A stretch of 64,000 nt of DNA from Desmonostoc vinosum HA7617-LM4. GTDB taxonomy: Bacteria > Cyanobacteriota > Cyanobacteriia > Cyanobacteriales > Nostocaceae. The stretch is from the NCBI GenBank assembly GCA_019359515.1, contig JAHHHC010000014.1, positions 1 to 64,000 of the forward strand, written 5' to 3'. Made by a program: the position numbers and the translations under genes. This document shows, piece after piece, positions 4,490-60,422 of this stretch. Below the pieces are notes generated by a model. That model worked only from the letters and a program-made list of their open reading frames with translations. It was not told where the DNA came from and searched no databases. Position 1 is the first letter of the stretch. Each line of letters opens with the position of its first letter.

Positions 4490-7135
4490 CTATTGATGCA
4501 ATTGCAACCGCCGTTCGCCGTAACGTAATAGCCTCTCTATAGATACCAAACGATTTTCCCAGGCTTTAACTTGATAGGAATTCTCTATAACTTCTTGGCT
4601 CATCAATACCCGAAATTGAGATTGAAAGCGAGTTAGCGAGGCTCTAGCTGCTAACAAATTACTGGCAGAAGGCGAAGTCGCAAGCTGATTCAAAGCACTT
4701 TGTAAAACCGCTGCTTGATTGTTAAAATCTGAAACCGTTTTAGCCACTACTAACTGATCATTCTGTAAAACAAATTTCCATTCCCGTTGCATAGCAGAAT
4801 AACGAACAGCAGCAGCTTGAAAAGGCTGACGGTAAGGAATAGGTTCACTTTTGTTAGTCTCTATCTTCTTTTGGGTGCTGCCAAAAAGTTTTTCTAGCTC
4901 ATGGTTAAAATTCTCGACAGCAAACAGTGCATAACCACCAGCTGCTGAATCTCTGACTAGTTGGAGTTGATCGAATGTGCCAATTGTGGGCAACGAAAGT
5001 AAACGAATTCCTGGCACTAGCAAAGTAGATCCTAATTTTGTTGAAGCTATCCAAGGTTGTGCTAATCGTTGGAAGCCAGAGGTATCTAACGCATAAGTCA
5101 TGGGAACGATTAAATCTATATCTCCCCGCCGCGCCCAAACTTCCCAGTTTTGCTGAATTTTCTGAATTCGTTCTAATTCTGGCAGCGGAAATACGGCAAC
5201 TGACAAAATCAAACTTGCTCGCTTTTGTCGCAACTCCCCAGATACTTGAGCGACAAAGCTATCGACTTGTTGAGTGCGAAATTCAGTCCACTTTTGCCAC
5301 AAGTCCGGTTGACTGGGAGAAATATCTATTGGATCTACGCCAGTTATTTGCTGAAACTGCGCTCTGGCAGCTTTCCCATAACCGTAAGTGCGGCCTGCAA
5401 CGGCATCTTGGAAGGGATAGCGAATGTAGTCTAGGTGTAAACCATCTACGTCATAGCGGGTGACAATTTCTGCGTACAGCTTGAGGAGATATTGCCGCAA
5501 TTGGGGATTAGCTGGGTCAAAAAATGGTTTAGTTTGACCAACGGGAATGATGTTACCAGAGCTATCGCTGTTTGCCCAATCGGGATGAGCTGCTAGTACT
5601 GGCCCTGGATAATCAGGGTTGATATTGAGAATCTGATTGTGGCGTTGGTTGCCAGCAGCAAAAGTCCAAACCCAAGCGTGTAATTCCATATCTCGCTCAT
5701 GGGCTAACTTCACCGCCGCCGCTAAGGGATCCCAACCCTTAATTAATGGGTTTTGCTGCGGTGCGACTTGGCTGGGATAAATAGTATAACCAGCGTTGAC
5801 AGTTTCAAAAAAGACGGTATTGATCCCAGATTGTGCTAGCCGATCAAAAATTTGAGCTAATCCTTCCACACTGCCTGCACGGACTATCGTCCCCCGATCT
5901 AACCATACTGAGCGGATTTCTGCTGGAGCTAATCTCTGATTCACAGGAAACTGTCGCCATAAGTTGGCTCTTGTGGTTTGCCACTGCTGACGAGCCAAAC
6001 CATAATTTTTGCTAGCAATTAATTGGGGTAAGTTTTTTGCCACTACCCTTGCCTGTGCTAACACTTGTTCTCTGCTGGGAATAACTGCACCTGGTTTAGT
6101 TGAGGCTACTTGCACCTGTTCTACTGGAGTGGATGCAGTATTGGTAACGTTAGTGTTATCAACGGATGCTGCTAAATGGGCACTTTCTACTCGACCAATC
6201 AAATTTTCTAGCTCTTGTTGGAGGGCGATCGCTTCGTTACTATCAATCGGTACATTGGAGTTTGGTACGACATCTAAACGCACTGTTGGTTCTGGTTCGT
6301 CAATAGCTACTGGGGGATTTTGTCTAGGTTGAGGCGCTGTAGCAATAGATATTGTTTCTGTTGAGGTAGAGCATTTTGGCGAACCGCCTTCGACTTTAGG
6401 CTTACGACTTGATGCTGTCAGATGACGATTAACAGAAGCTTTTAACCAGGCACTATCTAATTCTGCTGCTGAGGCTGTATCTGTCCCCCAACGCCAGCCA
6501 AATAAGGTAGAACGCTCGGTTGTTACCACGGCAGCGGGGTTATCTTGGGAGTTCCAAACAGCAGTAGTCTGACTGGTAGCAGCATTGGGAATCACCACAC
6601 CACCACGCACCTTACCAAAAAGACCACTTTGGTCTGTCAATTGCCGCACCTTAGTTTTTGAGGGTTTTATCTGTTGTGGCTCATTCAACCCAAATCCCCA
6701 ATAACTTCCTAAAAGCGATCGCAATAACTGACGTACTCCCGGTGCGGACAGACTACCCACAGGGCCACTAGCAATTAAATGTCCTCCCTTGCTCATCCAT
6801 GCTTCTAGAGCAATCGCTTGTGTTGGCGATAATGTCTCCACATTTGGCAAAAATAACACGCGGCGATCGCCCCAATCCGCTGCACTCTTGACAGTAGCTA
6901 GCGGAATCACACAATATTGCACACCAATTGTTTGCAACCGCTTAGTAATTCCTGTCCATTGCGGCGTATTTTCTTGACTCTGAACTACACTCAATACAGG
7001 TTCTGTATTTACTGCTCTGGCTGGCAAAATATTAAAACAATTAGAAGTTAAAATTTGAAAATAAAAAATGAAGAACCCGGCTTTTTTCAGAGGAAATTTA
7101 ACTTTTATTTTATGGCTTTTACCCTGATTCCTCAC
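4490..7135 (-). CDS. Exported GH10-like (GHL10/DUF187, PF02638-type) glycosidase family protein
   Basis: The protein has 881 residues. A GTG start is followed by a basic stretch and a hydrophobic signal-like segment (about 18-35). The N-terminal third resembles a glutamine-amidotransferase-like fold (LEAWMSKGGHLIASGP). A Pro/Thr-rich linker leads to the catalytic-type region, where RSVWLDRGTIV, INTVFFETVNAGYTIYPS, LHAWVWTFAAGN and VDGLHLDYIRYPF mark the GHL10 family. An all-helical tail closes the protein. Family members are predicted extracellular or periplasmic glycosidases; the substrate in cyanobacteria is not established, with envelope or exopolysaccharide glycans as candidates. It appears monocistronic. 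Confidence 0.85.
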   Translation of the reverse strand: MRNQGKSHKIKVKFPLKKAGFFIFYFQILTSNCFNILPARAVNTEPVLSVVQSQENTPQWTGITKRLQTIGVQYCVIPLATVKSAADWGDRRVLFLPNVETLSPTQAIALEAWMSKGGHLIASGPVGSLSAPGVRQLLRSLLGSYWGFGLNEPQQIKPSKTKVRQLTDQSGLFGKVRGGVVIPNAATSQTTAVWNSQDNPAAVVTTERSTLFGWRWGTDTASAAELDSAWLKASVNRHLTASSRKPKVEGGSPKCSTSTETISIATAPQPRQNPPVAIDEPEPTVRLDVVPNSNVPIDSNEAIALQQELENLIGRVESAHLAASVDNTNVTNTASTPVEQVQVASTKPGAVIPSREQVLAQARVVAKNLPQLIASKNYGLARQQWQTTRANLWRQFPVNQRLAPAEIRSVWLDRGTIVRAGSVEGLAQIFDRLAQSGINTVFFETVNAGYTIYPSQVAPQQNPLIKGWDPLAAAVKLAHERDMELHAWVWTFAAGNQRHNQILNINPDYPGPVLAAHPDWANSDSSGNIIPVGQTKPFFDPANPQLRQYLLKLYAEIVTRYDVDGLHLDYIRYPFQDAVAGRTYGYGKAARAQFQQITGVDPIDISPSQPDLWQKWTEFRTQQVDSFVAQVSGELRQKRASLILSVAVFPLPELERIQKIQQNWEVWARRGDIDLIVPMTYALDTSGFQRLAQPWIASTKLGSTLLVPGIRLLSLPTIGTFDQLQLVRDSAAGGYALFAVENFNHELEKLFGSTQKKIETNKSEPIPYRQPFQAAAVRYSAMQREWKFVLQNDQLVVAKTVSDFNNQAAVLQSALNQLATSPSASNLLAARASLTRFQSQFRVLMSQEVIENSYQVKAWENRLVSIERLLRYGERRLQLHQ

Positions 7136-24155: not shown

Positions 24156-26318
24156 TTAGATGAATTTGAGGTGTTCTCCTGGGGTGGAACGTAAATCTTT
24201 GAGAGTTCCTTGGGTGATGACTTGGCCTCTATCTAGCAGTACTACCCAATCTGAACGGTTGATGACGCTGGTACGGTGGGTGATCATGATGGTGGTTTTG
24301 CCTTTGCGGGATGCTAGGAGTCGATCTAAAACTTGGGCTTCGCTAACTGGGTCGAGTCCGGCGGTGGATTCGTCTAAGATGAGGATGGGGGGATCGGTGA
24401 TGATTCCTCTAGCTATTGCCAGTCTTTGGCGTTGTCCACCGGAAATGTTGGCACCGAATTCTCCTAAGACTGTTTGGTATTTGGATGGCAGTTGACTGAT
24501 GAAGTCGTCTGCATCTGCAATCTGGCAGGCTTTGACGATTTGCTCGAAGGAGATGTAAGGTGTACCCAAGCGGAAGTTTTCGATGATTGAACGACTCCAA
24601 AAGTGCGGTTCTTGCGGGACGTAGACTACTTGTTGTCGTAGGCAATCGAGAGAAAGGTCTTCTAAGTTAAAGTAGCCGATGCGGATGTTGCCGGAGTGGA
24701 GCTGATAAAATCCAGCTAGGAGTTTGGCTAGGGTACTTTTACCACAGCCTGATTTACCAATTAAAGCGATCGCATTCCCACCAGGTAGAGTTAAGGAAAG
24801 GTTTTGCATTAACTCGACTCTGCCAGCATGATAAAAGTTGAGTCGGGTGCAAATGATGTCTGCGTCAGCGGGAATTTGGGCAAAGGGTTTTTGAGTATTG
24901 GTGGTGACTTCTGGTGTGGCGTCGATGACTTCTACTAGGCGCGTGATGGCGATTTGAGTGCGAAAATATTCATCTACTAAGCTAACTAAGGAACTAACTA
25001 AGGCCAGAACATTACCCTGCATTCCATTAAAAGCTAGCAATTGACCAATGCTCAATTCTTTGTCAATTACTAGGAGGCTGCCCATTCCTAGTAAGGCGAT
25101 CGCACCAATACTACTTACAAGTTGTGAGAAAATATTATTCAAAATGCCAATTTGCACGGTACTAAAGGTCAGATTAGCAACGCGACTAAAACGGAGTTGA
25201 AATTCTTCCCAAAATTGCGACGCGGCATTAGTAGCTTTAATTACTAATGCGCCTTTGAAGGTTTCCACCAAAACCCCTTGATTTTCTGACGATAACACCA
25301 AAAGATTGCGGGTTTTTTGCCGCAAAATTGGTAACATCGGCACTGCTGATACGGTCATCAACCCACCTACCAACATTGATGCTAAAGTCAACTTCCAGCT
25401 ATAGAACACCATGAAGCTAAAGGAAACTACAGCTACAAAAAACTGGCTGGGTAGGAGCGCTACAATTTGCGAGACTAGCTGGTTAATTTCATTGATATCT
25501 CGCAATCGACTAACAATTTCACCACTGCGACGGGTTTCGTAATAAGTCAGAGGTAAGTGTAAAAGTTTACGCCCAAATTCGAGGATTAACCCCAACTGTA
25601 ACCGTTGGCTAAAGTGAGAAATCATCGTGGATTGCAAAAGTTGCAAGCTACCGCTAAATATACTCATCACCACAACAGCAACCACCAAAACAGCTAGTAG
25701 TTGCGTATCTTGACGCACTAGTACATCATCAGTGAGGAGTTGTAGCAAAAAAGGGCTAGACAGAGAAAGTAAGCCCAAGACAATATTGATGACCAAAACC
25801 CCAAAAAGTAAGGAACGGTAAGGCCAAACGCGTTGTAAAAAGCGTCCGAAGCCATCCGTTGATTTAACACCTTGCTCTTGCAATGAATACTCTGGATCTG
25901 GTTCCAGCAAGAGCATGATACCATTCCAATCTGTAAGTAACTCTTGGCGTTTGAGATAACGAATACCTACAGCCGGGTCGGCAATTACGTACTTTCCCCC
26001 ACGCTTACCGTATAAAACAACCCAGTGATAGCCCTTCCAATGAATTACCCCTGGTAGAGGAACTTCTTGAATCCGGTCTAAAATTTCTCCAGAAGCTTTC
26101 ACAGAACGGGTATTAAAGCCCAAACTTTCAAACCCCCGTCTTAAACCTAGTAGAGTAGTTCCTAACTGTCCAGTTCCGACAACTTCTCGACTACGAGTAA
26201 TACTTAAAAAGCGTCCATAGTATTTGCAAATCGCAGCTAAACAAGCAGCTCCACAGTCTTCTTCACTTGACTGTAAAACACACTGGTATTTGTTTTGGTG
26301 TTTGAGCAGTGGAATCAT
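24156..26318 (-). CDS. Peptidase-containing ABC exporter (PCAT, C39 peptidase-TMD-NBD)
   Basis: The 720-residue full-length fusion has the C39 peptidase at residues 1-135, with QSSEEDCGAAC holding the catalytic Cys, HWVVLYG holding His and ADPAVG holding Asp. A six-helix exporter domain follows, then a nucleotide-binding domain with Walker A IGKSGCGKST, signature ISGGQRQRLAIARG and Walker B LILDEST. Such transporters cut double-glycine leaders and export the core peptide. The HlyD-type adaptor gene lies immediately upstream and four GG-leader peptide genes are in the same run, so substrate and machinery are co-located. Confidence 0.93.
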   Translation of the reverse strand: MIPLLKHQNKYQCVLQSSEEDCGAACLAAICKYYGRFLSITRSREVVGTGQLGTTLLGLRRGFESLGFNTRSVKASGEILDRIQEVPLPGVIHWKGYHWVVLYGKRGGKYVIADPAVGIRYLKRQELLTDWNGIMLLLEPDPEYSLQEQGVKSTDGFGRFLQRVWPYRSLLFGVLVINIVLGLLSLSSPFLLQLLTDDVLVRQDTQLLAVLVVAVVVMSIFSGSLQLLQSTMISHFSQRLQLGLILEFGRKLLHLPLTYYETRRSGEIVSRLRDINEINQLVSQIVALLPSQFFVAVVSFSFMVFYSWKLTLASMLVGGLMTVSAVPMLPILRQKTRNLLVLSSENQGVLVETFKGALVIKATNAASQFWEEFQLRFSRVANLTFSTVQIGILNNIFSQLVSSIGAIALLGMGSLLVIDKELSIGQLLAFNGMQGNVLALVSSLVSLVDEYFRTQIAITRLVEVIDATPEVTTNTQKPFAQIPADADIICTRLNFYHAGRVELMQNLSLTLPGGNAIALIGKSGCGKSTLAKLLAGFYQLHSGNIRIGYFNLEDLSLDCLRQQVVYVPQEPHFWSRSIIENFRLGTPYISFEQIVKACQIADADDFISQLPSKYQTVLGEFGANISGGQRQRLAIARGIITDPPILILDESTAGLDPVSEAQVLDRLLASRKGKTTIMITHRTSVINRSDWVVLLDRGQVITQGTLKDLRSTPGEHLKFI

Positions 26319-26454
26319 GGGAGTGGGGAGTGGGGAGTAGGGAGTAGGGAATGGGCTTCTCCTGTCGGAGACGCTTCGCGTAGCTTGCTTCCCGTAGGGT
26401 ACGACTTCGCTCAGCCCACGGGGAATTGGGAATTTACAAATAACTAATGACTAA

Positions 26455-27915
26455 CTACAAATTCGCCACTAATCTCGTTTTCCGAAGGATGAATTTTAGT
26501 ACTGTTTCTTCGCGGGAAATAATGTCTGCTTTGCCTTCCATTCCTGGTTTTAATGGACACTGGCGTTTGCTGTCACCGACAAATAAACTCTGGGGTTGGA
26601 TGGTGACTTCGTAGGCGGCTGTCGCGGGTGCGGTGGTGCCATTGTTGACTGTGGGTAAGGCATCTGCAGCTACGGTTTTGACTGTGCCTTTGAGTGTGCC
26701 AAAGTCTGGATAAGGACAAGCTGAAACTTGCATCTGGACTTTTTGCTCTGGTTTGACTTTATCAATGTCAACCGCCGCCACTTGTGCTTTGATTAGTAAA
26801 GGCCCATTCATGGGTGTGATAGAAGCTATTGACTCGCCAACTCGCACTACCTGATTTTGGTTACGAAGATTTAATTGCAGTACTGTACCAGAAATGGGGG
26901 CACGAATTATACTTTGACTGAGGTCGGTGATTACTTGTTGTAGTTCTTGACGATTGCGATCGCTTTGTTTTTGCAATTCTAAACGTTGTTGTAGTAATGT
27001 CTGGAGTTCTTTGTTTAAAGCGGCTAAGCTAGCCTCACCCTTGGCTTTCTCTTGTTTAATTCGTTCAGATGCCACTGTGACAGCCGCGTCACTAGGATTT
27101 ATCGCTGCTCTAGCTTTGTCTAAATTAACTTGGGCAACTTGAACCGCTTGCTCTTTTTCCTCCAGTAAATTTTTCGCCCCAGCTTTGGCTTGTTCTAGCC
27201 TTGCCTCGGCTGCTGTAACTGCTTGTTCTTTTTCTTCGAGTAGAGTACGAGGAATAGCCCCTGATTGTATAATTGGCTGCAAACGTTCTTTTTGGGTCTT
27301 GGCTAGCTTTAAGGCTGCTTCCGCTTCTTGCACAGTTGCAGTGATTAGTTTTTCTTGCTTTAATCGGTCTCGTTGTGCTATTGCTACGTTTAAGGCTGTT
27401 TGAGCTTGGGTGATGTCAGCTTGCACTAGAACTTGCTGATCTGTATAGTTGCGTTGAGTACCGCCGAGTTCTGCTTGTGCAGCCACTATAGTGCGGTTAA
27501 TTAAGCTTGTTTCAGCTGCTATTTGGGTTTCGAGATTTTTGATTTGAGCATCAATTTGCTGTAGTTGTAATTGATTTTGTTGAATAGTGCTTTGTAGTTG
27601 ACTCTTTTGAGTCTGGAGGCGAGAATCATCAATGCGAGCGATCGCATCACCTTCTTTAACTACCTGATTCTCTTCAGCTTGAATCTGTTTAACAGTTCCT
27701 TCAATAGCAGCTTGTACTAAACGCAGTTCTCCCGCCGGACGGATAGTTGCAGGCACTTTAATAGTGACGTTGTACTTCAAAACTGTTGTCAGTGCCACCC
27801 CTATTCCGAAAACGCTAACAATAAACACCCCGCCAATAATTGCCCAAGGACTAATTCGAGGGAGAAACTCATTACTATTAAGTACCCTTAATTGATCTGG
27901 TTGAGGAGTATCCAT
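26455..27915 (-). CDS. HlyD-family periplasmic adaptor (membrane fusion protein)
   Basis: The 486-residue protein has one N-terminal transmembrane helix (AIIGGVFIVSVFGIGVAL), a lipoyl half-motif, and a long alpha-helical hairpin. The hairpin contains repeated coiled-coil units, with LLEEKEQAV occurring twice. A second lipoyl half-motif (IRAPISGTVLQL) and a beta-barrel region close it. It should link the inner-membrane C39 exporter to an outer-membrane TolC-like channel. No TolC gene is in the window, so a channel elsewhere must be used. A heptamer array separates it from the precursor genes. Confidence 0.9.
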   Translation of the reverse strand: MDTPQPDQLRVLNSNEFLPRISPWAIIGGVFIVSVFGIGVALTTVLKYNVTIKVPATIRPAGELRLVQAAIEGTVKQIQAEENQVVKEGDAIARIDDSRLQTQKSQLQSTIQQNQLQLQQIDAQIKNLETQIAAETSLINRTIVAAQAELGGTQRNYTDQQVLVQADITQAQTALNVAIAQRDRLKQEKLITATVQEAEAALKLAKTQKERLQPIIQSGAIPRTLLEEKEQAVTAAEARLEQAKAGAKNLLEEKEQAVQVAQVNLDKARAAINPSDAAVTVASERIKQEKAKGEASLAALNKELQTLLQQRLELQKQSDRNRQELQQVITDLSQSIIRAPISGTVLQLNLRNQNQVVRVGESIASITPMNGPLLIKAQVAAVDIDKVKPEQKVQMQVSACPYPDFGTLKGTVKTVAADALPTVNNGTTAPATAAYEVTIQPQSLFVGDSKRQCPLKPGMEGKADIISREETVLKFILRKTRLVANL

Positions 27916-27929
27916 AATTCGTAATTCGT

Positions 27930-28010
27930 AATTGGGAATGGGGAATGGGGAATGGGGAATGGGGAATGGGGAATGGGCCCCACAAAGTGGGGATTAGGAG
28001 AATGGGGAAT
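27930..28010. repeat. GGGGAAT heptamer array
   Basis: Five or more GGGGAAT units lie directly upstream of the hlyD start, followed by GGGCCCCACAAAGTGGGG. A related array occurs before the exporter gene (26320-26360). Their placement between precursor and export genes could affect transcript processing, but nothing in the sequence proves it. Confidence 0.7.
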
Positions 28011-28076
28011 TGTCATTTGTTATTGGTTATTCCCCGCGTCTCCGCGTCTCCCTCATCCCCCTCATCCCTGCTTGAG

Positions 28077-28310
28077 TTAGATTTTGAGCTTGAAGTCTTT
28101 TAAAGCGTCGGTAAATGTTTTCTCAGCAGTCACGAGTTGTATAACTTCGCTACCGCCCTTACCAGACTTGACTGTAGTTGCAAAACCTAGTGACTCTTGA
28201 GAGAAAGAAGTAGCAATTAAATCTTTAAAGTCGATACCGCCAGAAATAATTTCTTCTTGCTCGTTAGATAAATCGATGAACAATTCAGATTGCATAGTTA
28301 AGTGTGACAT
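28077..28310 (-). CDS. CTB-family bacteriocin precursor, copy 1 (divergent)
   Basis: This 77-residue double-glycine peptide has leader LFIDLSNEQEEIISGG cut after GG (about residue 25), leaving a core of about 52 residues starting IDFKDLIATSF. It differs from the other two copies mainly in the core (TTVKSGKGG for TTRSGKGG, KTF for KSY, DFKLKI for DFMLKI). The leader is nearly unchanged. It contains no cysteine. An AGAGG site lies 6-7 nt before the ATG. It is the promoter-distal gene of the trio and the closest to hlyD. Confidence 0.85.
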   Translation of the reverse strand: MSHLTMQSELFIDLSNEQEEIISGGIDFKDLIATSFSQESLGFATTVKSGKGGSEVIQLVTAEKTFTDALKDFKLKI

Positions 28311-28405
28311 TTTGAACCTCTTTGATATGTGTATGGTGTGATTTGGTGAATTGAAGAACGCAAAAAGAACGACTTTTGCAAGAAGTCTATTGATCCCTAC
28401 TTGAG

Positions 28406-28639
28406 TTAGATTTTGAGCATGAAATCTTTTAAAGCATCGGTATATGACTTCTCAGCAGTCACGAGTTGCATAACTTCGCTACCGCCCTTACCAGACCTGG
28501 TTGTGGTGGCAAAACCTAGTGATTCTTGGGAGAAAGAAGTCGCAATTAAATCTTTAAAGTCGATACCGCCAGAAACGATTTCTTCTTGCTCGTTAGATAA
28601 ATCGATGAACAATTCAGATTGCATAGTTAAGTGTGACAT
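28406..28639 (-). CDS. CTB-family bacteriocin precursor, copy 2
   Basis: Its 77 residues are identical in protein sequence to copy 3, with leader SNEQEEIVSGG and core including LGFATTTRSGKGG and KDFMLKI. The upstream region is a duplicate of that of copy 1, including the AGAGG ribosome site. Identity with copy 3 shows a recent duplication. Cleavage and export would use the C39 exporter of this locus. Confidence 0.85.
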   Translation of the reverse strand: MSHLTMQSELFIDLSNEQEEIVSGGIDFKDLIATSFSQESLGFATTTRSGKGGSEVMQLVTAEKSYTDALKDFMLKI

Positions 28640-51550: not shown

Positions 51551-52192
51551 ATGAATTTTCCTACCCAAAACAGCATTCCATTCATTATTCAATCAACAGA
51601 AAAAGGAGAACGAGCATTAGATATTTATTCCCGCTTGCTCGCAGAGCGAATTATTTTTCTCCGAAGTGAAGTCACAGACGACACAGCTAATCTCATTGTT
51701 GCACAAATGCTATTTCTCGATGCGGAAGATCCAGAGCGAGATATTACATTGTATATTAACAGCCCTGGAGGTTCAGTAACAGCAGGAATGGCTATTTATG
51801 ATGCCATCAATCAAATTCGTTCAGAAGTATGTACTGTATGTATTGGCATTGCTGCCTCTATGGGATCATTTTTGCTATCTGCGGGAACTAAAGGTAAAAG
51901 ATATGCTTTACCAAATGCTCGGATTATGATTCACCAACCATCAGGTGGTGTTCAAGGAAAAGCATCTGATATTGAGATTGCAGCTAAGGAAATTTTATAT
52001 TTCCGTCAATTAATTAACAAGATATTGGCTGCGAATACTGGCAAATCGTCAGAACAAATAGAACTTGACTCGGAACGTGATTTTTTTATGAGTGCTGAAG
52101 AAGCAAAAGCCTACGGTTTAATTGATCATCTTATTCTCAAAACATCTGCAACTCATTTCACTCATAGTCAATATCAAGGAAATGGAAGATAA
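51551..52192 (+). CDS. clpP: ATP-dependent Clp protease proteolytic subunit
   Basis: The 213-residue protein has an intact catalytic triad: S103 in [12 protein letters not shown]128 in IMIHQPSGG and D177 in DSERDFFMS. It should form a heptameric ring working with ClpC/ClpX unfoldases. Cyanobacteria carry several ClpP paralogues, and which one this is cannot be decided by eye. No clpX follows, so it is not the clpP-clpX operon copy. The short C-terminal tail ([12 protein letters not shown]) is variable. A MITE-like element lies immediately upstream. Confidence 0.93.
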
Positions 52193-52203
52193 ACAATCTT
52201 TAG

Positions 52204-52402
52204 TAGTAGACTATTTCAGCTAATTTAGTGCATTAGATTGAATAGGCGTAGGTTGGGTAACCACTGCGTTGCGGGGGTTCTCCCCGTTGTAGCAAGTAGC
52301 GTTTGAGGAACGAAACCCAACACCAATATCCATGTTGGGTTGAACGAAGTGAAACCCAACCTACAAAATTTCTTGCATTATTTTAGCTAAAACAGTCCGC
52401 TA
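52204..52402. mobile_element. MITE-like element of the TAGTGGACTGTTT family
   Basis: The ends TAGTAGACTATTTCAGCTAA and (reverse) TAGCGGACTGTTTTAGCTAA begin inverted repeats of about 29 bp that both reach TGCA. The interior holds GTAGGTTGGG and its complement CCCAACCTAC around CACTGCGTTGCGGG. There is no coding capacity. A degenerate relative is at 35313-35445. Confidence 0.65.
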
Positions 52403-52484
52403 TAAAAAAACTTTGGCTGATGACTATTAACCATCAATAATTAACGCAAAATTCCATCCCTTTTTAGAGGTTCTATAAGCTTAA

Positions 52485-53450
52485 TTACCAATCTCGATAG
52501 AGTTTTTCTGCATGAAACATAATTTCTTCATTGGGCAACCGAATTTTCGATTTTTGCCTGGGATATAAACTTTCAACGGCAGTTGTATCTTGTTCAATAA
52601 CTGTAGCTGCTGCTTTTAAAACTGAGTTTTTAAACAGAGATTTCATCAAAGGATTGACATCTCTGGCATACATTAAAATAAATGTTTTAGTACTTTTTTC
52701 TGTTTGGGGATAGAGAATATGAACTTGAGCAACCTTACCAATTGGTGTTTGAGCAAAAAGAACTGTAGTTGAAGGAAAAGCATATTCAAGTGCGTTGTTG
52801 AGGGTTTTAGGTAAGATTCCTAAAAGTGGATTTTTGATAATTTCACATAATGTGTTATCAGCTCTGGTAATTTCTTGCTGTACTTGAGCATAATATCCTT
52901 TTTCTTCAAAAGAACTGACGCTACATGATGTAATTTTAAACATTTCTTTATGAGTGCCATTTTGATGGTTATAGTCATAGTTAACCATCAAGTTACTCAA
53001 GAAGTCACCCTGAATACTTTTTTCTCCACTTACTCCCACGAATTCATATTCATCTACAATTCTTTGATGTAAATCTGGAATGGGTAATCTTGGCTCGAAT
53101 CCTGCATAAGTCCAAATACAATCGTTACTAACAATTAAGTCTAATGGTTGAGTAATTGGCTGAGTATCTTTTTTTTCTTCTCGGCAGAGTCTGCCTTGTC
53201 CATCAAATTCTAATGCATGAAAAGGACAAGTAATAGTATCTCTTTCTTGACATATCCAACCGTCTGATAAAGGAGCCTGCATATGCGGACAAATATTATC
53301 GATGGCGAATACTTCACCTTTTCGATTTTGCCAAACTACATAATCTTGTCCATTTAAAGTAATTTTATTGGGTTGATTAACTCCGAGCATTGATTTGTGA
53401 GCGATTAGCCAAGGCGCACCAGGTAAAATAGGTTCCATTTTGCACTCCAA
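52485..53450 (-). CDS. Rieske-type non-heme iron oxygenase
   Basis: The 321-residue protein has an N-terminal Rieske [2Fe-2S] domain with CPHMQAPLSDGW and CPFHALEFD, the C-x-H plus C-x2-H ligands. The C-terminal catalytic domain has NHQNGTHKEMFK, a plausible HxxxxH part of the mononuclear iron site. This is the ring-hydroxylating/PaO-like oxygenase group. The substrate is unknown. The gene is divergent from a TetR regulator with a palindrome in the shared spacer, suggesting inducible expression. The ferredoxin partner would come from elsewhere. Confidence 0.88.
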   Translation of the reverse strand: MECKMEPILPGAPWLIAHKSMLGVNQPNKITLNGQDYVVWQNRKGEVFAIDNICPHMQAPLSDGWICQERDTITCPFHALEFDGQGRLCREEKKDTQPITQPLDLIVSNDCIWTYAGFEPRLPIPDLHQRIVDEYEFVGVSGEKSIQGDFLSNLMVNYDYNHQNGTHKEMFKITSCSVSSFEEKGYYAQVQQEITRADNTLCEIIKNPLLGILPKTLNNALEYAFPSTTVLFAQTPIGKVAQVHILYPQTEKSTKTFILMYARDVNPLMKSLFKNSVLKAAATVIEQDTTAVESLYPRQKSKIRLPNEEIMFHAEKLYRDW

Positions 53451-53710
53451 AGTATTTAAATTCTTTTTAATTTCAGCGATTTTTGCAATAATTATTTATG
53501 TCTATCGAGAGATAAGTCAAAATAATTCGTAATTCGTAATTCGTAATTCGTCAGTTAAATTCAACATACACTTGTATATGTGCGTTACGGCTTCGCCTAA
53601 TACACCGCTACATCAGTTTTATGTCTAGTCAGGTATGAAGAAAATAATTTTGCATAGTTTCAAAACCCTTGTAGAGAGGTAAAAATGTTACGTCTCTACC
53701 TTAAATATAA

Positions 53711-53722
53711 TTAGTTAACTAA
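53711..53722. promoter_or_regulatory. Palindrome TTAGTTAACTAA in the tetR-oxygenase spacer
   Basis: The perfect 12-bp palindrome is followed by further TTAGTTAG and TTTTTAGTTAAG half-sites up to about 53795. It is a good candidate operator for the divergent TetR regulator. Confidence 0.55.
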
Positions 53723-53823
53723 TTTTTTAGTTAGTTAAATTTAATTTAAATTAACCTGACTGGATTTGTCAACTACTAAACAATTTTTAGTTAAGATATG
53801 ATTCGTTAGTATGATGGAGAACC

Positions 53824-54480
53824 GTGAGTCGTTCAACGCAGCCAAAAATTTTATCTAAAAAACCGCGTCAGGTGCGCGATGCAGAGGCGACGAAACAGCA
53901 AATTCTAGATGCGGCGGAAGCGGAGTTTTCTAGACATGGACTGAATGGAGCGCGGACAGAGGCGATCGCCAGAGGTGCAGGTGTCACTACAGCGATGATT
54001 TATTACTACTACCAGAGCAAAGAGGGGCTTTATCAAGCTGTTCTACAACGCCCGGTAGTGGAGATGTATGAAGGGTTTAAGCAGCTAAATCTCGATGATT
54101 TACCACCACAGGCAGCTTTGGAAGTAGTTGTTAGAGGAGCGATCGCTTACGAAGCAGCTCACCCCCAGCGCGGAATGCTTTGGTTTCAAGAAGCAAACCA
54201 AAATCAGGGAAAGTATTTCAAGCAGGGGAATTGGCAGGAAAATTTTAGTTATATCATTAAAGTTCTGGAACGGGGAATGACAGAAGGTTGTTTTCGTCAA
54301 CTCGATCCGTTTTTTGTCACCCTGCAAATAGTAGGAGTTTGTACTTTATACTTCAATGCTCACGAAAATCTCAAGCATATTAGACCGGACTTACAGCTGC
54401 TTAGCCCAGAACTAATAGAGCAGTATACTCAAGAAGCAATCAAATTGATTTTGGCAGGTGTACGAAGTGATAAAGGATAG
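53824..54480 (+). CDS. TetR/AcrR-family regulator
   Basis: The 218-residue protein has an N-terminal HTH: ATKQQILDAAEAEFSRHGLN, GARTEAIARGAGVTTAMIYY, YYQSKEGLYQAVL. A helical ligand-binding domain follows (C-terminal TetR_C type). The start is GTG with GGAG 5 nt upstream; the nearby ATGs are out of frame. It probably represses the divergent Rieske oxygenase and itself through the TTAGTTAACTAA region. The ligand is unknown. Confidence 0.9.
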   Translation: MSRSTQPKILSKKPRQVRDAEATKQQILDAAEAEFSRHGLNGARTEAIARGAGVTTAMIYYYYQSKEGLYQAVLQRPVVEMYEGFKQLNLDDLPPQAALEVVVRGAIAYEAAHPQRGMLWFQEANQNQGKYFKQGNWQENFSYIIKVLERGMTEGCFRQLDPFFVTLQIVGVCTLYFNAHENLKHIRPDLQLLSPELIEQYTQEAIKLILAGVRSDKG

Positions 54481-54583
54481 GGGGCAGGGGGCAGGGAGAT
54501 GAGGGAGATGAGGCGGCAGGGCAGGCAGGAGGAGAAATTACAAACATCTATTACCCAGTCCCCAGTCCCCAATCCCCAATCCC

Positions 54584-54916
54584 CTATTCATCAGAACCAA
54601 CAAGAACTTTGACTCCATCATTGCTTTCGGAAGATTGGGCGGGTTGCAATAAAATCGGAGTATCCGGCAATGAAATTGTTTGGTTTAAAGGAAATCTACC
54701 CGTAGTCTGATTGACTCTTTGATTATTGTTAGAAAACACTGCAAAGTCATCAGCATCTTGGACTGTTTTAGTATCAATTCCCTCTAAAGAATCACCAGTC
54801 AATTTGAAGTTATCTGAGCTTTGGTTAGGTATGTCTGGTGATTGGGCTTGAACCGGGCTTCCTAAGCTTGCAAAAGCTGTCATAATTGCCAAGACAGCAA
54901 TAATTTTAGCGTTCAT
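54584..54916 (-). CDS. Small exported protein of unknown function, 110 aa
   Basis: A clear signal peptide (IIAVLAIMTAFASLGSPVQA) with an AQA-type cleavage site is followed by an 85-residue Asn/Ser/Gln/Asp-rich, probably disordered mature part (DIPNQSSDNFKLTGDSLEG, ALQ-free, no cysteines). The family is not recognised. It may be an envelope or secreted protein. Confidence 0.65.
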   Translation of the reverse strand: MNAKIIAVLAIMTAFASLGSPVQAQSPDIPNQSSDNFKLTGDSLEGIDTKTVQDADDFAVFSNNNQRVNQTTGRFPLNQTISLPDTPILLQPAQSSESNDGVKVLVGSDE

Positions 54917-55496
54917 TAGTTTTACCCCAATTCTTTATTATTTTGCTTGTTTTTATTCTCTCAAGAGATTATTTGTTAACCTCTACATGCTAAATAGAGT
55001 CTGTAATAAATATTATTCTATAAATATATGCATTGTCAATGATAGCTATATTTAGTAAATCAAATAAATAAATTAAAGAGAATAAATCTTAATGTAAGAA
55101 AACGTTGACATTGCAATCACAATAATTAGCGAATCATCAAATTGCTATTAATCCATAAGAGATTGCTATAGTGGCGATCGCTAATCTGTGGATGCTAGAT
55201 GTAGTTTCGTTGGGATTTTCCTAAGCTAGTAGAAAAATCGGCAATGTGATTGTTTGAACTCAAGCTTGAGAAAACTCAATATATTTATACTCAACTAATG
55301 AGCATTTAACTTGCATGTATTAGTGGGTAAAATGCCTGTAATACAAGACTTTAACATTTACGCATCTCTAAATATTAAATTTTATCAAGTTACCTATAAT
55401 TTACGTAATTTCCTCAGATAGTTATGAAGTTGAACGAGTGATGATTGCTGAGATATTTCCGCGATCGCACTTTTCATAAACATCAAGGAGAACAAT
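54917..55496. other. AT-rich spacer upstream of the putative RiPP precursor
   Basis: This 580-nt AT-rich region has no supportable frame. A strong ribosome site AAGGAGAA (55485-55492) precedes the precursor ATG. The HIP1 octamer at about 55461 is intact. A promoter for the precursor is likely here but cannot be placed. Confidence 0.5.
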
Positions 55497-55706
55497 ATGG
55501 AAAATCGTCTGCAAGTACAAAATCTTCAAGGCGAAGAATTAGATATGGAATTAACTCCCGAAGAGTTAGAAGAATTAGAAGCTTTGAAAGGTGGAGGTCT
55601 GTCTTACTTAGGAGATTTCACCTATCGGCCTTTTCCTTATGGAATTCCTGCCGACCTCTTCAGGTTGAAGACATTAGATGTCGCGAATCGAGTAGTTAGA
55701 TACTAA
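55497..55706 (+). CDS. Putative radical-SAM-modified RiPP precursor, 69 aa
   Basis: This short peptide lies 90 nt before a radical-SAM gene on the same strand and has a strong AAGGAG site. It has an acidic helical leader-like half (ELTPEELEELEALKGGG) and an aromatic/Arg/Pro-rich C-terminal half (LSYLGDFTYRPFPYGIP, then VANRVVRY). This architecture, leader plus a core rich in Tyr/Phe, is typical of precursors whose residues are cross-linked or excised by radical-SAM enzymes. No peptidase or transporter lies next to it. The GGG could be the leader cleavage site. The product type is unknown. Confidence 0.65.
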   Translation: MENRLQVQNLQGEELDMELTPEELEELEALKGGGLSYLGDFTYRPFPYGIPADLFRLKTLDVANRVVRY

Positions 55707-55796
55707 AACTTTTTGCAGAGTTTCTTGTAAAAGTATCTTCTGCAAAAGATTTATCGGGTTTTAAATTACCAAGAGTCATTGGAGACGTGTAAGTAT

Positions 55797-56855
55797 ATGA
55801 CACCTACTGGAAACTTTAACCGTATTATTCAAATCCACCCATCCAGGCGGTGCAACTTGCACTGTCTCCATTGTTACTCTTCTTCTAGTCCCCAGGAGCG
55901 TGACCAACTTAGTATCGCGCTCCTTTTACAAGCAATTACCGAAGCCAGTGAACAAGGGTACACAACCGTTAGCTTCTCAGGAGGCGAACCCCTTGTATAC
56001 AAACCTTTACCTGAACTAATCAGACAAGCCCAGCAATGCCAGATGCGGATAATCTTGACTTCCAATGGCATACTCTTAGACGAGCGACACCTAGAACAGC
56101 TATCTGGAAAAGTTGATCTACTAGCCATCAGTTTAGATGGAATGCCTGCTTCCCATAACCGGATACGAGCTTCAGAGCGAGCCTTTGAGAAAATGGCCGC
56201 TCGATTAGCAGGGGTGCGAGAATCAGGTATTCCATTTGGATTTATTTTCACCCTCACAAAACAAAATTTTCGTGAACTAGATTGGGTGGCAAATTTTGCT
56301 CTAGAACAGGGAGCGAAATTATTCCAAATTCATCCCCTTGTAGAGGTCGGACAAGCTAGCCAAAGCCTCATCGGTGCTAAACCCAGCACAAACATCCTAT
56401 CCCATGCTTACCTCAAAGCCATACGCTTGAGAGAAGCTTTTGGTGACAAACTGTTTATTCAAATTGATTTAGTTCATCAGGAATTACTACGCCTGAATCC
56501 TGATAGTTTTTTTGCAGACGAACTCCCACTCAATGAAGCAGAATACTGCTTTGCTGACCTCGTATCACCCTTAATTATTGAAGCAGATGGGACAGTAGTA
56601 CCCATGCAGCATGGTTTTGCTCGCAATTACGCTTTAGGAAATCTCAACGAAGCTTCGCTAGGAAAACTCGCCATCCATTGGCGTCAAGAGCATTACCCTG
56701 CTTTTCGAGAACTTTGCCGACGTGTTTATGAAGAATTAACAGCACCAGCCGAGCTGCCAATTACCGATTGGTATCAGACGCTGATGCAGTTTGCAAACAT
56801 GAGTGGGGAGTGGGGAGTGGGGAGTGGGGAGTGGGGAGTGGGGAGTAGGGAGTAG
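55797..56855 (+). CDS. Radical-SAM enzyme, putative RiPP maturase
   Basis: The 352-residue protein has cluster motif C19-x3-C23-x2-C26 (SRRCNLHCLHCYSS), GGEPL loop in VSFSGGEPLVY, and SLDGMPASHNRIR typical of the PqqE/MoaA-type barrel. C-terminal cysteines are few (AEYCFADLV, RELCRRV), so a full SPASM domain is doubtful and a shorter twitch-like region is more likely. The start is ATG at MTPTGN; an upstream TTG is less likely. The last dozen residues (SGEWGVGSGEWGVGS) and the stop are encoded by the GGGGAGT array. The likely substrate is the peptide encoded just upstream. Confidence 0.85.
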   Translation: MTPTGNFNRIIQIHPSRRCNLHCLHCYSSSSPQERDQLSIALLLQAITEASEQGYTTVSFSGGEPLVYKPLPELIRQAQQCQMRIILTSNGILLDERHLEQLSGKVDLLAISLDGMPASHNRIRASERAFEKMAARLAGVRESGIPFGFIFTLTKQNFRELDWVANFALEQGAKLFQIHPLVEVGQASQSLIGAKPSTNILSHAYLKAIRLREAFGDKLFIQIDLVHQELLRLNPDSFFADELPLNEAEYCFADLVSPLIIEADGTVVPMQHGFARNYALGNLNEASLGKLAIHWRQEHYPAFRELCRRVYEELTAPAELPITDWYQTLMQFANMSGEWGVGSGEWGVGSRE

Positions 56856-56878
56856 GGAGTAGGGAGTAGGGAGTAGGG
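56802..56878. repeat. GGGGAGT/GGGAGTA heptamer array overlapping the 3' end of the radical-SAM gene
   Basis: About eleven 7-bp units cover the last codons and the stop. Since 7 is not a multiple of 3, gain or loss of one unit changes the reading frame and C-terminus. Confidence 0.9.
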
Positions 56879-56954
56879 GAAGAAATATTTTCATAGTTTA
56901 TTGTTAAGCGCAGCTCATAGAGTATTTTGCAAAAGTTTCAATTTTCGCGCTCTT

Positions 56955-57058
56955 ATATCATGTCCGGCTAATCACTTATCATAAAAATTTCTCCCTTGTC
57001 CCCGCGTCTCCCTATCTCCGCGTCAGCCAAATCATAAGTCTTTAAACGGACATGATAT
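56955..57058. mobile_element. Small element with 12-bp perfect terminal inverted repeats
   Basis: ATATCATGTCCG (56955-56966) and CGGACATGATAT (57047-57058) are perfect inverted repeats bounding 104 bp. The left 54 bp recur inverted at 42183-42236. It is noncoding and has a GTCCCCGCGTCTCCC repeat inside. Confidence 0.65.
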
Positions 57059-57137
57059 TATTTGCGTCTTTGCGTCTTTGCGTGAGCTTTTCACTCATAT
57101 TCAACAACGCCAAAATTATCTATGCAAGAAGTTTCAT

Positions 57138-57968
57138 CTAGACTTTAGCGCCTAATACATCTCGATTTAAAACTTGATTTAACTTCCCACTACGATAACC
57201 TTCTAAATCCAGAGTCACATAGATAAATCCCAAATCTTGAAACGCACAAACCAACGTCTGTAAATCTGTAGTTAACACAAACTCCTTAATTTGTCCTGGT
57301 GGCAATTCAATACGTGCTGTATCTCCCTCAGAACGCACACGCAAATTCATTAAACCTAGCTTTCGCAGATGAATTTCAGCCCTACCGACTCTTTGCAACT
57401 TAGCTACAGTAATTTCTTCACCATAGGGAAAGCGAGAACTCAGACAAGGTTGAGCAGGTTTATCCCACCAAGGTAAGCCGAGTAGTTGTGAAAGTTGCCG
57501 AACTTCTACCTTCGTAACACCGACTTCTGCCAAAGGCGATCGCGCCCCTCTTTCCTTAGCCGCCTGAATTCCTGGGCGATAATCATGCAAGTCATCAGCA
57601 TTTACCCCATCCACCACATAGGGATAACCCAACTCTAAAGCTAAAGGCTTGAGGGTGTCGTGCAATTCGCTTTTGCAAAAATAACAGCGATTAACGGGGT
57701 TAGCAGTGTAATTGGGATTGTCCATCTCGTGAGTTTGAACAACTTTATGCTGAATTCCTATAGTTGCGGCTTGAATTTTGGCGTCTTCCAACTCTTCTGG
57801 TAACAGCGAAGGTGAAACAGCTGTGATTGCCAAAGCGCGATCGCCCAACACATCATAAGCAATTTTGGCAACCAAAGTGCTATCAACACCGCCAGAGTAG
57901 GCAATCAATGCCTGCTCCATTTCTTGAAATAAAGCTTTTATTTGCTCAAGTTTTTCTGTTAGTATCAT
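57138..57968 (-). CDS. larE: ATP-dependent sacrificial sulfur transferase LarE
   Basis: The 276-residue PP-loop protein has SGGVDST at 25-31, RCYFCKSELH and QPCLSSRFPYG with C175. C175 corresponds to the Cys that gives up its sulfur in LarE while building the nickel-pincer cofactor of lactate racemase. Cyanobacterial homologues are widespread and may serve other sulfur-transfer routes; larB and larC are not adjacent here. The single-Cys form suggests the sacrificial mechanism rather than [4Fe-4S] use. Confidence 0.92.
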   Translation of the reverse strand: MILTEKLEQIKALFQEMEQALIAYSGGVDSTLVAKIAYDVLGDRALAITAVSPSLLPEELEDAKIQAATIGIQHKVVQTHEMDNPNYTANPVNRCYFCKSELHDTLKPLALELGYPYVVDGVNADDLHDYRPGIQAAKERGARSPLAEVGVTKVEVRQLSQLLGLPWWDKPAQPCLSSRFPYGEEITVAKLQRVGRAEIHLRKLGLMNLRVRSEGDTARIELPPGQIKEFVLTTDLQTLVCAFQDLGFIYVTLDLEGYRSGKLNQVLNRDVLGAKV

Positions 57969-58112
57969 TGCCCAATTCCGCCAAAACCATATATCTATTT
58001 TAGGGATTAGGGATTGGGGATTGGGCTTCGACTTCGCTCAGCCCACGGGGGATTGGGAATGGGGAATGGGATAATATTCTCAAATTTGTCTGTGGCTAAA
58101 TTGCAATAGAGT

Positions 58113-59000
58113 TCAGTTTGTCAAGAAAATAGTTGCTGGATCGGATTTTAAAGCAATTAGTTGTGGCAGGTCTTGCTCGTTTAAGTTTTGCATATCTATT
58201 TGGATGCAAGCTAAGTCAAAGGCTGTTTTGAGGTCGCGCCCATAACCTAATGCTTGATAGAATGATGTGGCAAAACTGATAGCTGATTCGTCTTGAATTG
58301 CTTGAGACATACCAATTACGCTGTCGATGTGTTGGGCGATCGCTTTTGCTTGTATATCAGAATAGCAAGCATTTAGCACTACGCAGCGAATGTCATCTTT
58401 TAGTACAGAAAATAGTTGACTCAAGGCTCTGACTGAAACAGAATGACTATTACCAGAGTTATCTAATAAAAGAATCTCATTATCTTCGTTGCCATGACCA
58501 CTAAAATGTACAATATTAGGCCTATGGCGTAGCAGAAGACCTTGTAAATCACTCACACGCACAGCCCAGTGCTGAATCACCTCAAACCGATCACGAAATT
58601 CTGACTGACGCAGAGCTTGGTCAATTGAGCGACTTTCTTGATCTAAACTTAAATGAGTTTTATCTGAAGGGTTAGCGGCTAGAAAAAGGATTTTAATTAC
58701 TGGATTTTTAGGGTTATTTGAATTATTAATACTCTCTTTAGTAGCGATTTCTTGGTGAATTTTATTCCTTAATTTTAGGAGTGCGTCTGTAAGCCGATTT
58801 TTTTCTCTGCGGATCTCTTCGTTACTAAGAATACCTTTGCGATCGTTTTCTTGCAATTGGTTTAAGCTAGCAGCGTGCAAAATCACTTCGTCATGATAGC
58901 GAGATGAGTATTCATTAGTAATTTCCTTTAGTTGCAAAATAGCACTTTCTAATTCACCCTGTTCAATGAGATTTTTAATGTTATTTAACTTGTCGTTCAT
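58113..59000 (-). CDS. CHAT (caspase-like) protease with N-terminal effector-associated-type domain
   Basis: The 295-residue protein has residues 1-85 forming a helical domain (IKNLIEQGELESAILQLKEI, LNQLQENDRKGILSNEE). This matches the EAD-type adaptor domains described for bacterial conflict systems. The rest is a CHAT peptidase with catalytic H169 (IVHFSGHG) and C212 (VVLNACYS). CHAT proteases cut proteins in immunity or cell-death pathways. It is last in a three-gene operon and starts 3 nt after the stop of the membrane-protein gene. The N-terminal domain is visibly related to that of the ABC ATPase encoded by the first gene, suggesting recruitment by like-with-like contact. Confidence 0.88.
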   Translation of the reverse strand: MNDKLNNIKNLIEQGELESAILQLKEITNEYSSRYHDEVILHAASLNQLQENDRKGILSNEEIRREKNRLTDALLKLRNKIHQEIATKESINNSNNPKNPVIKILFLAANPSDKTHLSLDQESRSIDQALRQSEFRDRFEVIQHWAVRVSDLQGLLLRHRPNIVHFSGHGNEDNEILLLDNSGNSHSVSVRALSQLFSVLKDDIRCVVLNACYSDIQAKAIAQHIDSVIGMSQAIQDESAISFATSFYQALGYGRDLKTAFDLACIQIDMQNLNEQDLPQLIALKSDPATIFLTN

Positions 59001-59003
59001 AGT

Positions 59004-60422
59004 TTAATCTTTAGGTAGATATAATTGATTCATCAACTCACGCTTAAGATAAGGTATCAACGGTAAATATGCTAAGCTGGCAATGATAAAATATTTGTCC
59101 GCAAATGTAAAACTATTTTCGGATATTTTATAAGAATCTATGAAGACATATGGAAGCATCATCACACAAATAATTACTGCAAATGGAAGCGCTACAAGAT
59201 TCATTACCTTAAATAAAGAATATTTTTCTGTTTGTTTGGTACTTAGTAATTGATACATAATAAACAAAATAAATATCAAACATAATATACTGAATATTAT
59301 CTCTGGCTTGATGCTAAAAACCGATAAATATGATAAGAAAGCAGTAATAAATAGACATAAAATCATTGCAATTGTTATGTAAAAAAATCCGAAAAAACAA
59401 ACATTAAAAAATGTATTTTTAACCAAAAATAGGAGTAACGAACCTAAGTTGCAAATAATATAGATTGAAAACAATAAAGATGATTTGAGTAAGTAGAAAT
59501 CATTAATTTTATAGGCATTATCTGTGGACATATATAGCAAATCTCTTATTGGTTTTTGTCTATTTTCTTGCTCATATATATCTGTTTGTGTATATCTTTT
59601 TATCATTTTAGTAATCGCTTTTTTAGCGTTTTCGTCTCCTTTTGTTATGGATTCTACTAACTCAACTAAATCACTCAGGTCTTCTCTTGCTAATTGATAG
59701 TTTTTATTCGCTATAATTGCATTAAAAAATGCTATTCGTCTAGATGGTCTTAATAATCCCAAAAAATTTAGATGTTTACACTCAACTATTCCTCGTATAA
59801 TCTTGTCTACAGTATTTTTTGGTATACTTAATCTCTCATATTTTATACTACAATTATCAGACCTTATTTGCTCATTAACTTTAGATTTTAGAGCTTCTAT
59901 GTATGTATCAAGAGTAACTTTATCTCTATATTTATCAGCAGTTGATTCTAGTACTAGTAAATCAATATTTAGCTGATTATGAGTAGCAACAACTTGCATC
60001 ATTTTGCATGACATTGATAAATTGAATGTTATCGCCCCTGAAGCAATCAAAACTATACAAGTAGCATAACCTAGTATTTCAAGGAAGCCATACTTTTTGG
60101 GAATTTTATTATATTGTTTTTTGACATCATATAAATATTGCTGAATCCACCAATAATAAAATGCAGTTATGCCAACAGCAGGAAGGAAAATAAAATTGAT
60201 CTGCGAAAAAATAAAAACATGATCCGGTTTAATCGGATAAATAATAACCAAAAAAATAATTAATAAATTTGCTAGCAATGCATAGTAAGCAACGTAATGT
60301 AATTTGAATACCCATAGTCTCGGCTGATTTAATAAAAGATAACGATCAAACTTTTGTAATGCTTGAGGAGATAAAATCTTGGCTAACAGATATTTTGTAC
60401 TATTAAATAATTTCTGATTCAT
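59004..60422 (-). CDS. Polytopic membrane protein of the EAD-ABC/CHAT operon, family not recognised
   Basis: The 472-residue protein has about three N-terminal membrane helices (near 40-62, 72-90, 113-135), then a soluble region of about 165 residues (LLVLESTADKYRDKVTLDTY, SKVNEQIRSDNC, KKAITKMIKRYTQTDI), then about five more helices. Its start overlaps the ATPase stop by 4 nt, so it is the natural membrane partner of that ATPase. It shows none of the usual ABC-2 or FtsX permease motifs that I know. It is AT-rich and free of the HIP1 octamer. It may be a permease, a signalling platform or a pore, and the sequence does not decide between these. Confidence 0.75.
   Translation of the reverse strand: MNQKLFNSTKYLLAKILSPQALQKFDRYLLLNQPRLWVFKLHYVAYYALLANLLIIFLVIIYPIKPDHVFIFSQINFIFLPAVGITAFYYWWIQQYLYDVKKQYNKIPKKYGFLEILGYATCIVLIASGAITFNLSMSCKMMQVVATHNQLNIDLLVLESTADKYRDKVTLDTYIEALKSKVNEQIRSDNCSIKYERLSIPKNTVDKIIRGIVECKHLNFLGLLRPSRRIAFFNAIIANKNYQLAREDLSDLVELVESITKGDENAKKAITKMIKRYTQTDIYEQENRQKPIRDLLYMSTDNAYKINDFYLLKSSLLFSIYIICNLGSLLLFLVKNTFFNVCFFGFFYITIAMILCLFITAFLSYLSVFSIKPEIIFSILCLIFILFIMYQLLSTKQTEKYSLFKVMNLVALPFAVIICVMMLPYVFIDSYKISENSFTFADKYFIIASLAYLPLIPYLKRELMNQLYLPKD

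Follow-up and report, generated by a model that had tools for sequence, protein, structure and literature searches.

The systems closest to the locus analyzed here are the spliceotides (PlpA/PlpX/PlpY), the proteusin epimerases (PoyD family, TIGR04517), the EpeE/YydG epipeptide epimerase, the SPASM/twitch maturases SkfB, PqqE, and SuiB, and the cyanobacterial C39 double-glycine bacteriocin clusters. We take the family IPR026482 to be the one described by the splicease-type model TIGR04103. In the available text of the sources, PlpX belongs to IPR026482 (PMC11002830) and PIRPLYGLPI is given as a splicease tag (PMC10533398). Two further sources (PMC8326336, PMC5682303) describe, in the portions available, the proteusin epimerases as holding the SAM cluster only, together with a critical cysteine; EpeE as using Cys223, acting on isoleucine and valine, and carrying a second cluster; and the enzymes under review that form thioether and C–C bonds as carrying auxiliary clusters. 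The available text on the C39 bacteriocin clusters (PMC3140520) contains no occurrence of the term "radical SAM".

The locus lies in the window (the whole stretch of 64,000 nucleotides that was analyzed) and consists of a peptide gene and a radical-SAM gene, a pair that also occurs in other genomes. Like the spliceotides, the pair joins a cyanobacterial radical-SAM enzyme to a leader ending in GG, and the core encoded in the window follows the pattern P-hydrophobic-...-Y-G-[VI]; unlike them, it has a short leader rather than one of the Nif11 type, no conserved tyrosine, no PlpY, and an enzyme scoring far below the TIGR04103 cut-off. It shares with the proteusin epimerases an apparently single cluster and one critical-looking cysteine, but no match to their model, no proteusin leader, and no C-terminal RRE were seen at the pair. 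The combination of a small peptide with one radical-SAM enzyme, Ile/Val as a possible target, and a match in fold recall EpeE, which differs in its second cluster, in the position of Cys223 (by our reading, not the place of C313 in the enzyme of the pair), and in a sequence match confined to the core domain. SkfB, PqqE, and SuiB share the overall fold, whereas the cysteines of their auxiliary clusters have been lost in the enzyme of the pair.

We posit that the locus is a minimal two-gene RiPP cassette. The precursor would carry a double-glycine leader; its core motif, [FL]-P-x-G-[IV]-P, would be the substrate of the neighboring enzyme, which would take a Cα hydrogen and return a hydrogen from its cysteine C313, with L-to-D epimerization most likely of the conserved Ile/Val or of the residue x before Gly; and a C39 peptidase-transporter encoded elsewhere would cut behind the GG and export the product. 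For this explanation as a whole, a C39-exported RiPP modified by a single-cluster radical-SAM enzyme that most likely epimerizes, we estimate a probability of about 0.38. Very probably, the two genes yield a small secreted peptide that is chemically modified and belongs to no family we could name. In general kind, a precursor with a radical-SAM enzyme, the locus is ordinary; as a family it appears, as far as our searches reach, to be new. The pathway would need a single peptide and a single enzyme; its presumed target motif is conserved and occurs naturally in repeats, and the Asn, Tyr, and His variants of that motif are a ready-made natural substrate series. The enzyme falls into none of the maturase classes tested and seems able to do without an auxiliary cluster, a partner protein, and a recognition domain.

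Table 1. Features of the peptide–enzyme locus, in positions of the window
Feature	Position	Strand	Basis
Ribosome-binding site AAGGAG	55485..55490	+	Sequence; relatives with GGAG or AGGA upstream of the peptide ATG
Predicted RiPP precursor gene, 69 aa	55497..55706	+	Kept upstream of the enzyme in 11/11 loci with upstream DNA; dN/dS
Predicted leader, 33 aa, double-glycine end	55497..55595	+	Invariant columns; GG in 12/12 precursors
Core motif FPYGIP	55632..55649	+	15 sites [FL]P[YNH]G[IV]P across 10 loci
Intergenic hairpin, 11-bp stem	55710..55748	+	RNA fold
Radical-SAM enzyme	55797..56855	+	Pfam, alignments; open from TTG 55779; conserved part to ~56805
CxxxCxxC	55851..55874	+	C25, C29, and C32 counted from TTG; invariant in 10 complete sequences
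SPASM-like hairpin, cluster Cys replaced (P-[MVL]-Q)	56574..56642	+	anSME alignment, Cys276 opposite non-Cys
C313 codon	56715..56717	+	10/10 complete sequences; also a 26–27% identical plasmid homolog

Conservation of the peptide and its neighboring enzyme

The peptide gene in the window encodes MENRLQVQNLQGEELDMELTPEELEELEALKGGGLSYLGDFTYRPFPYGIPADLFRLKTLDVANRVVRY, in which an acidic stretch, LTPEELEELEALKGGG, and a tail containing aromatic residues and arginine are both present. The earlier note had described this small gene, its ribosome site, and a 90-nt gap between it and a CxxxCxxC radical-SAM gene; all were found as claimed, with the gap running from the peptide stop to an enzyme start at ATG 55797. 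A six-frame search for the enzyme in 217 genomes of the same family (E ≤ 1e-40) recovered it in 10, its own and nine of one other genus, which we take to be Nostoc. Of 386 sampled genomes from the phylum, two had it, its own and that of a member of another family of the class (G491), and in a class sample of 388 genomes these two scored 656 and 583 bits and the next match 77 bits. Identity to the enzyme of the window is 78–81% in seven relatives, 58% in two, 53% in G491, and 54% in a twelfth enzyme, a fragment from a metagenome-assembled genome (MAG) that begins at the contig edge and is left out of the pairing count. A search for conserved precursor–enzyme pairs had been proposed, with absence of the small frame beside homologous enzymes as the outcome that would speak against the RiPP reading; in all 11 loci with upstream DNA, however, the enzyme is preceded by a precursor-like ORF.

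More distant matches were found on three viral contigs (23–32% identity), in 17 phage and 112 plasmid records (all below 60% identity), and at a Thaumarchaeota locus (27%; L008). Of 249 genomes around the MAG, 15 have a match, namely the fragment and 14 core-domain matches at ~91–105 bits that we provisionally take for other radical-SAM enzymes. The MAG contig (L007, 1–1004), labelled Methylococcaceae, carries the enzyme fragment immediately ahead of a C39-like ORF; both seem to be truncated, and the label or the assembly may be unreliable.

When 208 family genomes were searched with a profile of the precursor, eight hits were obtained, six of them strong. The other two, in G239 and G232 (E 0.006–0.007), are not counted; the one in G239 falls within an ORF that has a GG leader and adjoins a C39 transporter. 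Five enzyme-bearing genomes (G142, G148, G155, G179, and G180) are not among the hits, either not sampled or missed, and their precursors were read directly. All 12 precursors listed, including that of a decayed locus in G137, have a double-glycine leader and no cysteine, and residues M1, L19, T20, G32, G33, and G49 are invariant in the alignment (A3). Fifteen copies of the motif [FL]-P-[YNH]-G-[IV]-P are spread over 10 loci, G137 among them. The variable residue x is Asn at 10 sites, Tyr at four, and His at one, and is flanked at every site by P and G; the first residue is Phe at nine sites and Leu at six. The window has one copy of the motif and five of its seven close relatives have two (L002, L004, L005, L006, and L022). 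We consider this motif the likely target of the enzyme. In the two diverged loci (L020 and L021), PPTIGIV stands twice in its place, which counts against the proposed explanation. The suggestion that Tyr, Phe, and Arg of the tail are the modification sites is not supported by the comparison, given that Tyr is replaced at 11 of the 15 sites and Phe by Leu at six, and that the arginine of the window's core is Lys or another residue in relatives.

Compared with the window, the seven close relatives have dN/dS values of 0.10–0.20 for the 33 codons of the leader and 0.22–0.32 for the whole precursor, and six relatives have 0.10–0.14 for the enzyme; by this measure the leader is under purifying selection. 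The comparison of L020 and L021 with the window gives 0.57–0.58. Precursor-wide values between pairs of Nostoc are 0.47, 0.56, and 0.69 (0.14 for one very close pair), which indicates loose constraint on the core outside the motif. The conserved pairing, the selection on the leader, the recurrent core motif, the decayed locus, and the linkage to C39 genes in two loci bear out the initial reading of the two genes as a RiPP precursor and its radical-SAM maturase, which we regard as highly probable.

The spacer between the two genes (55707–55796) folds at -19.7 kcal/mol (z -2.29; 6 of 200 shuffles equally good). The equivalent spacers of other loci also fold, but from unrelated sequences, and no Rfam match reached the gathering threshold within 52000–60000. 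The hairpin in this spacer is a possible brake on the enzyme level. In the literature searched, which includes few subscription papers and does not extend to the 2022 spliceotide survey, the strings FPNGIP, PNGIPA, PYGIPA, PLYGVV, and FPYGIP are absent; among the titles and abstracts listed from the same literature, none describes this precursor–enzyme family.

Architecture and class placement of the enzyme

The enzyme matches Pfam Radical_SAM (PF04055) with an E value of 1.2e-23. The ATG is a likelier start than the upstream TTG, because in one relative (L003) a TAG precedes the corresponding ATG by two codons. With the ATG as start, the first cysteine of the cluster motif falls at residue 19, probably too early for an N-terminal recognition domain to fit before it. 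At the other end, the frame runs into a heptamer repeat (GAGTGGG, 56801–56880, 11.3 copies), and for this reason we place the end of the conserved protein near 56805; the array extends the frame with a Gly/Trp-rich tail.

The score for the Pfam SPASM model, 17.5 bits, is below its cut-off (21.5). The C-terminal part of the enzyme aligns with the SPASM region of anSME, whose Cys276 and Cys317 stand opposite residues other than cysteine (cluster-ligand numbers from the available text of PMC5682303). As far as these comparisons go, they support the claim of the earlier note that a complete SPASM domain is missing, and we regard the enzyme as having, by alignment, a SPASM-like fold without the SPASM cysteines. 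It appears to carry just the cluster that cleaves SAM; residues other than cysteine may nevertheless bind a second one. The sole invariant cysteine outside CxxxCxxC is C313, present in all 10 complete sequences.

A single AlphaFold model of modest quality (pLDDT 62, pTM 0.67) places SkfB (Z 21.7, 3.3 Å, 273 residues aligned), PqqE (Z 21.3, 3.3 Å, 255 aligned), and SuiB (Z 21.1, 3.7 Å, 287 aligned) as tied nearest solved folds among the matches listed, with EpeE at Z 16.0 (4.3 Å, 250 aligned). C313 lies on a helix, by our reading away from where Cys223 of EpeE would be placed. A Mycolicibacterium plasmid protein (26% identity over 94%, E 8e-30) shares an LGN...F..LC...Y stretch and C313 and has further cysteines besides. 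This radical-SAM protein is encoded at 4929–6068 (+) of its record (L089), behind a 118-aa hypothetical protein that is a possible substrate.

Among the best 25 NCBIfam matches (of 83, 67, and 84) for each of three cyanobacterial enzymes, which lie on the core domain, no cut-off was approached, the highest being NirJ2 with 96.7 bits against a cut-off of 500, in agreement with the initial failure to place the enzyme in a named maturase class. TIGR04517 (rSAM_PoyD) has no match at the locus in a search of four genomes with E up to 1. Sactipeptides and ranthipeptides require core cysteines; since none of the 12 precursors contains one, both were rejected and thioether formation is excluded. The three-residue motif of triceptides begins with an aromatic residue, and with Leu as the first residue at 6 of the 15 sites this class was set aside as well.

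Predicted chemistry at the core motif

A redox-neutral reaction is favored because any cluster besides the SAM-cleaving one seems to be absent, and epimerization fits best given the absence of SPASM ligands, the one invariant extra cysteine, and the conserved Ile/Val in the motif. That the position before Gly accepts Asn, Tyr, and His points to a reaction there on the backbone and not on the side chain. C313 is a candidate hydrogen donor; it could also be structural or a relic ligand. Against this reading, the PoyD model gave no match, and EpeE has a second cluster and a lower Z score than SkfB, PqqE, and SuiB. We advance epimerization of the core as a tentative reading that falls short of an even chance. 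If correct, the enzyme would define an additional class of radical-SAM peptide epimerase, apart from the existing ones.

The isolation of the family, for which scores in the class sample drop from 583 to 77 bits, and the poor fit of every named class among the best 25 of 83 matches would also be consistent with another radical reaction on the motif, such as hydroxylation, desaturation, or a decarboxylation-type or other conversion. Nothing specific counts against this reading, apart from the usual use of an auxiliary cluster by known oxidations of this kind; we consider it unlikely. The sequences F-P-N, F-P-Y, and F-P-H, found at 9 of the 15 sites, suggest a C–C crosslink from Phe to the residue two positions on, as in triceptide-like cyclophanes, and the solved structure of ChlB, which we take to be a cyclophane synthase, is among the fold matches (Z 17.9). 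Yet Leu replaces Phe at six sites, and the SPASM cysteines are missing although the C–C and thioether enzymes reviewed in the available text of PMC5682303 carry auxiliary clusters; such a crosslink is improbable.

The resemblance of the core in the window, R-P-F-P-Y-G-I-P, to the tag PIRPLYGLPI (available text of PMC10533398) and to the sequences RPLYGVV, QPLYGIV, and QPMYGIV raises splicease-type splicing, as do the P and G that flank the variable residue at all 15 sites. An X-Tyr-Gly at the modified site, however, is present in the window but at only 4 of the 15 sites of the family; the enzyme scores 45.5 bits against the TIGR04103 cut-off of 725, which another enzyme of the same genome (G000:C88) exceeds with 838; and a PlpY-like gene was found at none of the 12 loci of the pair versus all six splicease-type control loci, that of the query's own genome included. 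On this balance splicing of the core is quite improbable; were it to occur, it would widen a reaction already used in protein labelling. We consider decidedly improbable a new form of backbone editing, convergent with that of the spliceases and tolerant of Asn, Tyr, or His before Gly, in which an enzyme with a single cluster and no partner or recognition domain would give a secreted peptide with repeated reactive or otherwise rebuilt P-x-G-I turns. Finally, the haem-pathway models NirJ2 and NirJ score best (~96 bits, best 25 of 83 matches) and could place the enzyme in a pathway unrelated to RiPPs, with the small gene encoding an unmodified peptide or a regulator, but these scores amount to about one-fifth of the cut-offs over residues 21–194 only, and the 11/11 pairing in three settings, the common core motif, and the GG leader make this very improbable.

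The genome of the window has its own splicease-type locus (L052; G000:C88:11000–20000), with the TIGR04103 enzyme, a PlpY-like gene, and Nif11-type precursors with several XYG sites, whose cores include the three sequences named above. Four of the six splicease-type loci (L054, L055, L056, and L068) encode a second GG-leader peptide with the core PPIT[IVL]G[LI]I, which resembles the PPTIGIV of L020 and L021; in these four loci the peptide adjoins a cysteine-containing protein of ~146 aa, and the two such proteins tested have no Pfam match.

Genomic settings and proposed export

The pair occurs in three genomic settings. In the window, in L001–L006, and in G137, the downstream neighbor is LarE (320 bits, cut-off 150); the contig of L022 stops inside the enzyme. 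In G491, the pair stands alone among unrelated genes. The third setting comprises diverged loci linked to C39 genes (G140 and G155), in which the precursor and enzyme are accompanied by two more GG-leader peptides, a C39 peptidase-ABC transporter, and a protein of the HlyD family; one of the extra peptides weakly matches a class IIb bacteriocin model (16.2 bits, cut-off 21.5).

These two diverged copies, with their GG leader and an adjacent C39 transporter and HlyD-family gene, resemble the cyanobacterial C39 double-glycine bacteriocin clusters (PMC3140520), unlike most copies of the pair, which have no transporter next door. The statement in the earlier note that other pathway genes are absent is correct for the immediate neighbors of the pair but not for the window, which also encodes, ~27–31 kb from the pair, a C39 peptidase-ABC transporter (24156–26318), a protein of the HlyD family, and GG peptides resembling bacteriocins of the CTB family. 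This region (24156–28639, -) carries its GG peptides in tandem, one of which matches NF038167 with 61.7 bits (cut-off 32). The genome contains 12 C39 matches in total, and we infer that the product of the pair is exported by a C39 transporter.

Decay of the pair is apparent in G137, a relative from the genus taken to be Nostoc and the sole strong hit of the precursor profile in a genome without a known enzyme. There, an ORF (L066, 6638–6934, -) encodes the leader and the first motif and then continues in frame into the last residues of the enzyme, with 76% identity over enzyme residues 315–339, within the same larE/GDSL-hydrolase neighborhood. By our reading, the rest of the enzyme appears to have been deleted.
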